A stretch of 64,000 nucleotides of DNA from Candidatus Saccharimonadota bacterium (GTDB lineage Bacteria; Patescibacteriota; Saccharimonadia; Saccharimonadales; UBA4665), in contig JAQBRT010000001.1 in the NCBI GenBank assembly GCA_028286345.1, positions 754,567-818,566 on the forward strand, read 5' to 3'. The translations under genes were made by a program, and so were the position numbers. Shown piece by piece: positions 20,895 through 23,006 of this stretch. Positions within the stretch are counted from its first letter, which is position 1, and every line of letters begins with the position of its first letter. The notes beneath the pieces were generated by a model. It was not told where the DNA came from. It saw only the letters and a list, made by a program, of their open reading frames with translations, and did not search any database.

Positions 20895-21146
20895 ATGACC
20901 ACCATGCAAACCGAAACAGAAGTCCTGCACTTCACGCTGTCATACATCGACCGAGTCTGGAGGGCCACCGGCGACACCATGCTCCGCAGCGCTCTGCAGC
21001 GGCGCGACGTCGCCGAGATCGAGGCCAGATTCAAATTCCAGTTGATGGAGCGTCCACACCACAATGACGGCAAGTGGCTGCTCAAGGTCCGGAGGCTCTC
21101 TGACGAGTTCAAGGACGAACTGAGCAAGTTCACCAACAAGAAGTAG
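20895..21146 (+). CDS. Small charged hypothetical protein, atypical codon use
   Basis: 83 residues, helical and highly charged, not recognised. GGAGGG (20886-20891) precedes the ATG, and a second in-frame ATG at 20904 is possible. TATACT at 20847-20852 gives a leader of about 35 nt, in which TTCTC and GAGAA can pair. Codons end mostly in C or G (GAG, AAG, ATC), unlike dprA before it. It belongs by style with the genes at 21508-22708, though its leader differs from theirs. Confidence 0.7.
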   Translation: MTTMQTETEVLHFTLSYIDRVWRATGDTMLRSALQRRDVAEIEARFKFQLMERPHHNDGKWLLKVRRLSDEFKDELSKFTNKK

Positions 21147-21252: not shown

Positions 21253-21310
21253 ACCGTTCCACAGATGTACAGCTGTGCTGATGAGCCGTTAACGGCGAAA
21301 ACGGTGCGCA

Positions 21311-21507
21311 TTGCAAAAATGCTCAATTATGATAAAATAGTCAGGTTTCGTCGAGGCAATTTTTTGCGCTCCGAAGCACTTTGACAAGTAGGTACACCGA
21401 GGTCAGATATTAGCAGAGCCATCTCTGTTGTTATCTGACCTCGCGTTATAGAACACGCAACTAGCATCAGCTACGATAGGTCACGCTCTGCCCCAGGGGG
21501 AGTTTAT
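21311..21507 (+). promoter_or_regulatory. Promoter and structured leader of unit 1
   Basis: TTGCAA (21311-21316), a 16-bp spacer and extended -10 TGATAAAAT (TAAAAT 21333-21338). In the leader, hairpin I (TTCG, GAG and CAA pairing with TTG, CTC and CGAA) is followed by the linker TTGACAAGTAGG (21381-21392). Hairpin II has 12-bp perfect arms at 21398-21409 and 21432-21443 and a capping CAGAG/CTCTG stem. GGGGGAG then precedes the ATG at 21508. The linker bases 21383-21395 are complementary to 22242-22254 in the tail of the same unit. Leader 2 (22274-22402) has the same architecture. Confidence 0.75.
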
Positions 21508-21783
21508 ATGCAAGCCAGTGTCATCAGTTACACCAAGCGCTACATCAAGCTCAACTACCGTCCGTCTATCCCGTTCGACCAGTTGGCCGACGACACCCTT
21601 CGGTTCCTGAAGCTCCGCTTCCAGGACGAGCCATCTGCCATCACGGCAGAGGTCGAGGAGTACGTCCAGCAGCAGATCCGTGCCGTCCAGGGACCATTCC
21701 TGCCCAGCGACATCCGCAAGGCCAAGGAGACCTGCCGCATCATCGAGCAGCGACCCTCCCGGGTCAGCCTGGTCCAGGTCTAG
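21508..21783 (+). CDS. Small hypothetical protein of RNA unit 1, first gene
   Basis: 91 residues, soluble, mixed helix and strand, not recognised. GGGGGAG sets the start. Every Glu codon is GAG, every Lys AAG and every Ile ATC, a bias absent from dprA and topA on either side. It is the first of two genes between a structured leader and a matching tail. Function unknown. Confidence 0.75.
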   Translation: MQASVISYTKRYIKLNYRPSIPFDQLADDTLRFLKLRFQDEPSAITAEVEEYVQQQIRAVQGPFLPSDIRKAKETCRIIEQRPSRVSLVQV

Positions 21784-21817
21784 CTCATCCAACTACTGCC
21801 CGTTGAAAGGGAGTACA

Positions 21818-22162
21818 TTGACTACAGAGCATGAGATCACAAACCAAGTGGCGAACCGCGTTGCAGCGCTGTTCAGCACACCCAAGCTCATACCGGTTCT
21901 GGCAGCCGCCTTGGCTGAGATCGACCCGCAGAGCCTTCACGGCACCCAGCGACAGATCCGTCACCGGATGTTCCAGATACGCGGTCGCGTTCTCGAGATC
22001 CTCGATCATGAGCTCCTTGCGGACGACGACCTCGACATGATCATCTCGGCCATCGGCCACAGCCGTGTCGAGGGCATACCGGGAGAGCCGCTGCTGATGT
22101 TTGAGCCGCTCATCGACTCCTTACCCAGTTACGGAGCTCGCGCTTCGGCCCTGGTCACTTAA
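21818..22162 (+). CDS. Small hypothetical protein of RNA unit 1, second gene
   Basis: About 114 residues from a TTG start. The reading frame has no ATG near its beginning, and AAAGGGAG (21806-21813) lies four bases upstream of the TTG. The protein is helical (VANRVAALFSTPKLIPVLAAALAEID) and acidic, and not recognised. The stop codon lies in the loop of a large hairpin (22139-22177) whose arms are CGCTTCGG and CCGAAGCG plus TGGTC/GACCA. Codon use matches the 21508 gene. Confidence 0.72.
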   Translation: MTTEHEITNQVANRVAALFSTPKLIPVLAAALAEIDPQSLHGTQRQIRHRMFQIRGRVLEILDHELLADDDLDMIISAIGHSRVEGIPGEPLLMFEPLIDSLPSYGARASALVT

Positions 22163-22260
22163 GACCAGCCGAAGCGCTGCCCCCAGGGTAGGCAAGCAGG
22201 TGGCTTCCAGCTAAGGCTCACGCCTCACGTGTTCTTCTAACGTGCCTACTTGTCTTGCCC
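22139..22260 (+). promoter_or_regulatory. 3' tail of unit 1, complementary to its leader
   Basis: Two structures are visible. A hairpin spans the stop codon of the 21818 gene (22139-22177, about 15 bp with a 2-nt bulge). A second stem pairs GGCAAG-CAGGTGG (22191-22203) with CCTACTTG-T-CTTGCC (22245-22259). The 3' arm contains GTGCCTACTTGTC (22242-22254), which is a 13-nt complement (one G-U) of 21383-21395 in the leader. The same bases can therefore pair locally or with the 5' end, but not both. No T-run follows. Confidence 0.7.
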
Positions 22261-22273
22261 ATGCTTATCGCTA

Positions 22274-22402
22274 TTGATTAAAAGTAATATTTATTGTAAA
22301 GTTATACGGTTCCGTTGAGGCTTTTGCCTCCGGTGCACATTGACAAGTAGACGATCGGGATGAGCCACTAGCGCTGCTATACAGCACTGTTGGTTCGTCC
22401 TG
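22274..22402 (+). promoter_or_regulatory. Promoter and structured leader of unit 2
   Basis: TTGATT (22274-22279), a 17-bp spacer and TAAAGT (22297-22302). Hairpin I is CCG-TT-GAGGC-TTTT-GCCTC-CGG (22312-22333). The linker TTGACAAGTAGACGA follows (22340-22354). Hairpin II has 12-nt arms at 22356-22367 and 22391-22402, fully paired with three G-U pairs, capped by GCTG/CAGC. The helices match leader 1 although many bases differ, which is the mark of a conserved RNA fold. Bases 22341-22354 are a 14-nt perfect complement of 22785-22798. Confidence 0.75.
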
Positions 22403-22450
22403 AATTTAGAAATTAGAAACCATCATCCACCAATCCTGAGGAGCTGTCCC

Positions 22451-22708
22451 ATGGTACTGCCCAACAAGACCTACCAGGCCGCTGTTGCCAACGCCACACC
22501 GCGACTCTCGCTCGACGACGCTGTCAAGACCACGCTGTACCAGATCGGCTTCAAGGCTGACGACTACTCCGTAGAGGAACGGCAAGGCCTGCTCACCGAG
22601 CTCTCAACGCTCATCAGCACCAAGCAGCTTGCCAACTTCCACGTAGGCCTGAACGCCAAGTCCGCATCTGAGCGCGAACTGGTCGGCGCCGAAGCCTCTG
22701 GCAAGTAG
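22451..22708 (+). CDS. Small hypothetical protein of RNA unit 2
   Basis: 85 residues, soluble, not recognised. GAGGAG precedes the ATG by about nine bases. The protein is largely helical (LSLDDAVKTTLYQIGF, VEERQGLLTELSTLIS). Lys codons are all AAG and Ile all ATC. It sits alone between leader 2 and tail 2. There is no clear similarity to the unit 1 proteins by eye, so the RNA elements are conserved while the cargo differs. Confidence 0.72.
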   Translation: MVLPNKTYQAAVANATPRLSLDDAVKTTLYQIGFKADDYSVEERQGLLTELSTLISTKQLANFHVGLNAKSASERELVGAEASGK

Positions 22709-22716
22709 CTCTCCAC

Positions 22717-22803
22717 GGTATTGGCAGGTAGATGATGGTTAGCGGGTGCTACAAAGTTGCCTCTGGCAGCCCACCCCCTAAACTTCGTCTACTTGTCATT
22801 ACC
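22717..22803 (+). promoter_or_regulatory. 3' tail of unit 2, complementary to its leader
   Basis: The 32-nt arm 22717-22748 pairs imperfectly with 22772-22803 (mostly Watson-Crick, three G-U, a few mismatches). The 3' arm contains TCGTCTACTTGTCA (22785-22798), the exact complement of leader bases 22341-22354. Both tails end in a similar block, CTACTTGTC then CCCATGCT. Local stem and leader-tail duplex exclude each other. Confidence 0.7.
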
Positions 22804-22832: not shown

Positions 22833-23006
22833 ATGAAGTTTATGATTTTAGTTGGCATTACTATTGGCGGGGCAGTAGGGGGTTGGCTGGGCGCCCTGAT
22901 GAGCCACGGGAACTATTTGAGCGGCTGGAGCATCTTGCTCAGCACTGTAGGATCGTTCGCTGGTATCTGGGCAGGCTACAAAGCCGGCCAAAATATGGGC
23001 ATGTAG
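22833..23006 (+). CDS. Small membrane protein, 57 residues
   Basis: Two hydrophobic, Gly-rich segments (about 4-22 and 33-50) with small residues spaced like glycine-zipper helices (GITIGGAVGGWLGALM, GSFAGIWAGYKAG). Extended -10 TGGTAAACT (TAAACT 22821-22826) ends six bases before the ATG, the leaderless pattern. It lies between unit 2 and topA. Function unknown. Short, but the promoter position and composition support it. Confidence 0.6.
   Translation: MKFMILVGITIGGAVGGWLGALMSHGNYLSGWSILLSTVGSFAGIWAGYKAGQNMGM

Follow-up and report, generated by a model that had tools for sequence, protein, structure and literature searches.

The window analysed here is a 64,000-nt stretch of a Candidatus Saccharimonadota genome, and the locus of interest within it consists of small same-strand genes set between structured RNA elements. 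Upstream lies a cassette, u0, whose ORF (20895..21146, +) encodes an 83-aa orphan with a GC3 of 0.83 and which ends in a hammerhead ribozyme (21253..21305, +); no closed leader was recognised for it. Two tandem units follow. Unit 1 carries two ORFs, u1a (21508..21783, +; 91 aa, GC3 0.86) and u1b (21818..22162, +; 114 aa, GC3 0.72), the second of which uses a TTG start after GGGAG and has a strong predicted hairpin overlapping its stop codon (22144..22178, +), while unit 2 carries a single ORF, u2 (22451..22708, +; 85 aa, GC3 0.79). The proteins of the two units had appeared unrelated to one another at first inspection, and they are indeed orphans without a Pfam match; u1a and u2 have no homologue among the genomes of the family, and none of the window's own proteins matches a phage protein. 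Directly behind unit 2, positions 22833-23006 (+) encode a 57-aa glycine-zipper-like membrane protein with weak Pfam similarity only.

Both units begin with a promoter and a leader of the same design. The unit 1 promoter, TTGCAA-16-TAAAAT with an extended -10 element (21311..21338, +), was identified by a consensus scan and shares its -35/-10 layout with the promoters of relatives. The unit 2 promoter, TTGATT-17-TAAAGT (22276..22304, +), was read by eye and has the layout seen in relatives; the consensus scan does not report it. In unit 1, hairpin I (21345..21377, +) forms the predicted 5' end and contains a conserved core, G-UU/UC-GAG..CUC-C; it is followed by a linker, L (21383..21395, +), and by hairpin II, a 12-bp helix with a capping stem (21398..21443, +). 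The corresponding elements of unit 2 are hairpin I (22309..22336, +), L (22341..22354, +) and a capped hairpin II (22355..22403, +). When compared with dinucleotide shuffles the leader folds give z-scores of -6.9 and -5.0. Comparison of the units shows that, in hairpin II with its cap, both partners have changed in 8 pairs and a single partner in 4, and copy 2 has one C-A mismatch; in hairpin I, both partners have changed in one pair, and copy 2 has one U-U mismatch. These folds and two-sided changes bear out the initial annotation, which had described matching leaders that keep their pairing despite base changes.

Each linker is complementary to a tail, T, at the 3' end of its own unit. The pairings that had been read from the sequence, 21383-21395 with 22242-22254 (+) in unit 1 (13 nt, one G.U) and 22341-22354 with 22785-22798 (+) in unit 2 (14 nt), are exact. 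When each unit is folded at full length, the linker:tail helix is predicted to dominate the ensembles of both units with a probability of 0.87-1.0 per base pair, and the structure of unit 2 lies mainly in the UTRs, its ORF being no better structured than shuffles. Cross-pairing between the units, which had been raised as an additional option, can form but is much weaker, at -15 to -16 kcal/mol against about -23 kcal/mol within a unit.

The tail also has a potential partner close by. In unit 2 this local arm, L' (22722..22735, +), is a 14-nt mimic of the linker that pairs with T through a helix containing three G.U pairs, and in unit 1 it is a partial mimic (22186..22203, +) that can pair with the tail at a predicted -22.2 kcal/mol, compared with -23.5 kcal/mol for the linker, and that scored weakly in a systematic test for local arms. 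A linker-mimic segment pairing with G.U wobbles is found 50-80 nt 5' of the tail in many units and is absent from some. Across 21 full transcripts, the predicted folds are dominated by the closed state in 16 and by the local hairpin in 5, and closure and the local tail hairpin are near-isoenergetic and mutually exclusive in these models. The local hairpin competing with closure that had been proposed for this locus is thus recovered, most clearly in unit 2, and the exclusive states recur in many units. Because local arms are so frequent and the folds split 16:5, we regard the exclusive states as a property of the family, though not a universal one.

The spread of the leader was examined with two covariance models. 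The first, R1, was built from the leaders of units 1 and 2, as had been suggested for Saccharibacteria genomes, and was searched against 93 genomes of the same family, where it matched 35 sites in 18 genomes, many with E-values between 1e-7 and 1e-16; once the two window leaders are set aside, this leaves 33 copies spread over 17 other genomes. The second, R2, a refined model of hairpin I and the linker, recovered 111 leaders across 47 of the 295 genomes of the order, with a single genome carrying up to 15 leaders, each before different genes. R2 also identified a third unit in the source genome, at C2:717739 (E 0.0025), which had been left out of model building and so constitutes a prospective hit. 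It is again closed, by a linker of its own (TGACAGAGTAGAGACGA) and a matching tail (TCTCTACTCTGTC) ~0.6 kb downstream that differ from those of units 1 and 2, and its protein bears no similarity to u1a. The proposal of a new class of cis-acting RNA had been made dependent on further covarying copies in relatives, and these occur throughout the order. Searches of Rfam returned no known family for leaders or tails, the sole matches being hammerheads, and viral contigs (searched by protein and by leader motif) and plasmids gave no match. One leader motif (L178) lies on a contig, JAITDV010000319.1, that was assigned to a Planctomycetaceae bin but is probably a misbinned Saccharibacteria contig.

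Covariation in the family extends to the leader and to its helix with the tail. In the leader alignment, 93.7% of cells are paired, compared with at most 46.5% in slid controls, the covariation measure is 0.374 where the controls reach no more than 0.082, and both partners have changed in 26 of 29 pairs. For the linker:tail helix, 26 units were aligned; each of the 8 core columns pairs in 24-26 of them, with two to four Watson-Crick pair types, and this covarying helix excludes chance as the source of the match. The linkers and tails that pair in this way can be quite unlike one another, as in GACAGACAGATACGC, GACAGAGTAAAGACG and TGCTCTCAGTATCAG. The pairing total of linkers with their own tails is 809, against 451 ± 26 when tails are permuted (0 of 20000 permutations), for T sites that were chosen as best complements; reversed-linker controls were mostly much shorter, and many of the T sites were located independently by controls and adjoining ribozymes. 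A few leaders, such as L083 and L093, have no tail within the 1.5 kb examined. On these comparative grounds, units 1 and 2 are members of a widespread, undescribed class of Saccharibacteria mRNA whose leader appears built for pairing with its own tail.

Such an arrangement could work as a riboswitch-like or protein-regulated switch, where a ligand or protein on hairpin I or II toggles between L:T and L':T to control translation or decay across a regulon of small genes. Two conserved, exclusive pairings of near-equal predicted energy would suit such a device, as would the near-invariant bases of hairpin I and the presence of so many leaders before different genes in one genome. Hairpin I is conserved, but hairpin II is highly variable and is missing altogether from L080, L081, L082, L084, L085 and L090, the cargo is unrelated and shares no pathway, and not all units have a recognised local arm. 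We consider a dedicated switch possible, though unlikely. Four of the leaders without hairpin II (L082, L084, L085 and L090) form a subclass that also lacks a hammerhead, with a linker around AAGYTCTCTGTT and a tail inside the end of the ORF or just behind it.

The second recurring component, absent from the initial annotation, is the hammerhead ribozyme, a known ribozyme class that is here found in a new setting. The u0 hammerhead, located by a match to RF00008 and by a motif scan, has closed stems I and II, an open stem III (ACCGUU/AACGGU) and a predicted cleavage site after C21259 (NUH = UUC); it scores 23.2-24.7 bits, the lower value having an E of 0.07 (2.3 kb x 4227 families), and so falls short of the Rfam gathering score of 48.5, a level attained by only three relatives in the order. 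The hallmarks of type III hammerheads, namely the CUGANGA ... GAA(A) core, three helices and NUH, are present in u0 and in 61 other sites, so that the motif scan of the loci examined yields 62 distinct hammerheads, compared with 0 in a 1.6-Mb reversed control. RF00008 matches occur in 23 of the 93 family genomes and in 16 of the 18 with R1 leaders, and in many relatives the hammerhead core lies directly behind the tail. A hammerhead is found on the same strand 0.5-1.8 kb downstream of 31 of the 111 leaders and upstream of 8 (tandem units), and never on the opposite strand (0/111). Units 1 and 2, like several relatives, have a tail with no recognisable ribozyme behind it, and L079 ends in an ordinary terminator. 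Conversely, no closure was found for some hammerhead cassettes, which makes closure and self-cleavage separable. Other Patescibacteria also contain hammerheads, more rarely.

Two further observations concern the 3' ends of cassettes. One region (G088 C6:24227-38302, parts of which are in L099 and L172) holds at least six same-strand cassettes in which leaders and hammerheads alternate, some of them without closure. In L074, L088, L089, L094 and L072, structured sequence that matches no known ribozyme lies 3' of the tail, and a motif common to L074 and L088, near ACUAAAAnGAAA, may be another self-cleaving element.

The fixed order of these elements bears on whether L and T might act at the level of DNA, as the inverted repeats at the ends of a transposon- or integron-like mobile cassette. 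The inverted-repeat geometry, the tandem same-strand arrays and the patchy occurrence among genomes would all fit, but the pairing tolerates G.U pairs, the promoter and hairpin I sit outside the repeat, orientation is fixed relative to promoter and ribozyme, the flanking genes are housekeeping genes, and there are no relatives in Rfam or among viral contigs. No integrase or transposase is present among the 25 listed families of neighbouring ORFs. Given this strand fixity and these neighbours, we rejected a mobile element as highly improbable.

In the genomes compared, the anatomy of the class, its covariation, its strand order and the co-occurrence of its parts are established: a promoter, hairpin I, linker L, usually hairpin II, at least one ORF and a tail T covarying with L, with a hammerhead immediately 3' of T in many copies, although not in all. 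The reading that we favour, and hold to be probable, is that these are end-closed mRNA cassettes in which closure and ribozyme trimming shield both ends. Transcription would start at the base of hairpin I, as placed by the promoter, and self-cleavage behind T would give the nascent mRNA a defined 3' end that carries a 2',3'-cyclic phosphate. T would then pair with L and close the mRNA, so that exonucleases could attack neither the 5' end, which is a terminal hairpin, nor the 3' end, which would be both held in a duplex and blocked chemically. The G.U-weakened arm L' may hold T until it is captured by L, or may render closure reversible, and the device could then switch between two states to set stability or translation. 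The cassettes would serve to give a long life to mRNAs that encode small accessory proteins, many of which are actinophage-like.

Several known systems share parts of this arrangement. In Staphylococcus aureus, the leader of the icaR mRNA pairs with its own 3' UTR, affecting decay or translation. As here, the pairing joins the 5' and 3' UTRs of one mRNA, but icaR is a single mRNA with a short anti-SD motif, whereas we describe more than 100 candidate cassettes that have a structured leader, a covarying helix and, in many cases, a ribozyme. In the cyclisation of flavivirus genomes, complementary 5' and 3' elements compete with a local 3' hairpin, a likeness that extends to the present units, although the latter are DNA-encoded bacterial mRNAs rather than a viral RNA genome. 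The nearest precedent is found in hammerheads clustered around prophage genes, many of unknown function (Perreault et al. 2011, PMC3088659), which also lie at gene or operon ends and could cut transcripts into gene-length mRNAs. In the Saccharibacteria cassettes, by contrast, the ribozyme follows a dedicated tail whose bases covary with those of the 5' leader, and the cassettes lie among housekeeping genes rather than in integrase-linked prophages. Obelisks and viroid-like RNAs resemble the units in being RNAs of about 1 kb with an orphan ORF and type III hammerheads (PMC13096302, PMC11922315), but here the genes are chromosomal and have promoters, there is one hammerhead per unit, the ORFs are not rod-folded and there is no sign of circles. 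An Obelisk- or viroid-like replicon was rejected, the units being chromosomal with promoters and the u2 ORF folding no better than shuffles. In the literature searched (subscription papers and preprints not covered), we found no bacterial mRNA family in which a covarying helix between leader and tail has been described together with self-cleavage at the 3' end, and no publication linking hammerheads with Saccharibacteria or Patescibacteria. The class represents a recurring bacterial mRNA architecture in which both ends would be controlled by RNA alone, through a dedicated leader-tail helix and, in many copies, a ribozyme that makes the 3' end. It would give a concrete role to the hammerheads of many Patescibacteria genomes, and marks out an accessory gene set, in part actinophage-related, in organisms whose parasitism on Actinobacteria is little understood, raising the testable question of whether some of the cassette messengers are read in the host.

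The cargo itself consists mostly of orphans and has no common pathway. Few of 79 unit proteins match Pfam, these being Band_7 (three cases), glycosyltransferase (two) and, once each, RNA polymerase alpha-CTD, DUF2807, flotillin and cold-shock domains. Codon usage is distinctive, with a median GC3 of 0.79-0.80 for cassette ORFs; in the source genome, u0, u1a, u1b and u2 have values of 0.72-0.86, compared with a mean of 0.546 (sd 0.065) for ORFs of at least 150 aa. Optimisation for the cell's own ribosomes was ruled out, since the highly expressed genes of this genome have a GC3 of 0.51-0.60 and favour GAA, CCA, ATT and GTT. The cassettes show the opposite preference, with GAG, CCC/CCG, ATC, ACG and GCG frequent in them and rare in the genes for EF-G, DnaK, GroEL and RpoC.

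This codon style invites the idea that the cassettes are exported messengers, closed and trimmed RNAs that pass into the actinobacterial host, for instance through a type IV system that lacks a relaxase, to be translated in that host, with closure and the cyclic phosphate protecting them in transit and hairpin I serving as a recognition tag. Cargo codons run opposite to those of the cell's highly expressed genes, unit ORFs reach a GC3 of 0.97 beside neighbours at 0.38, and cargo relatives are often from actinophages: those of L121 are actinobacteriophages in 351 of 351 records, those of L159 are mycobacteriophages only, L100:7655 matches a Rhodococcus phage, and L099:9654 both a Streptomyces phage and Dulem virus 39. 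Patescibacterial type IV secretion systems, moreover, are conjugation-like, mostly without a relaxase and thought to be co-opted for other functions (PMC12102498). Recent capture of genes from high-GC phages would, however, yield the same codon style, the GC-rich style is not universal (0.50 in the third unit of the source genome; 0.39 in L112 and 0.29 in L116; 0.28-0.39 in units of AT-rich genomes), and the L128 cargo family matches Paenibacillus and Microcystis phages instead. Phage gene capture is the plainer account of both codon style and actinophage-like cargo, and export is in our judgement improbable, if conceivable. The fullest form of the idea, which we also find unlikely, is that Saccharibacteria make armoured mRNAs, protected by the 5' hairpin, by covarying closure and by a 3' end that the ribozyme makes and leaves blocked, and bring actinophage-like or orphan effector genes, in the codon style of the high-GC actinobacterial host, into that host for translation. 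Recent capture and long-term selection for GC-rich codons were also weighed against each other: in homologous cargo pairs, 36-50% of codons differ at identical residues and GC3 still stays near 0.74-0.90, a pattern that independent import could still produce.

Three further observations concern individual genes. The source genome contains orphan ORFs of similar composition (L032:5389-5658 and L031:12267-12728, both on the minus strand; GC3 0.83-0.87, one with a signal peptide) at which no leader or hammerhead was recognised. The product of a hammerhead cassette at L104:13598-14008 (-) has an RNA polymerase alpha C-terminal domain (Pfam, one A4 member) and is possibly a transcription effector. 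The glycosyltransferase-like cargo of L137:1672-2367 (-) and L194:3543-5049 (+) is 93% identical between two Saccharibacteria families, suggesting recent transfer.
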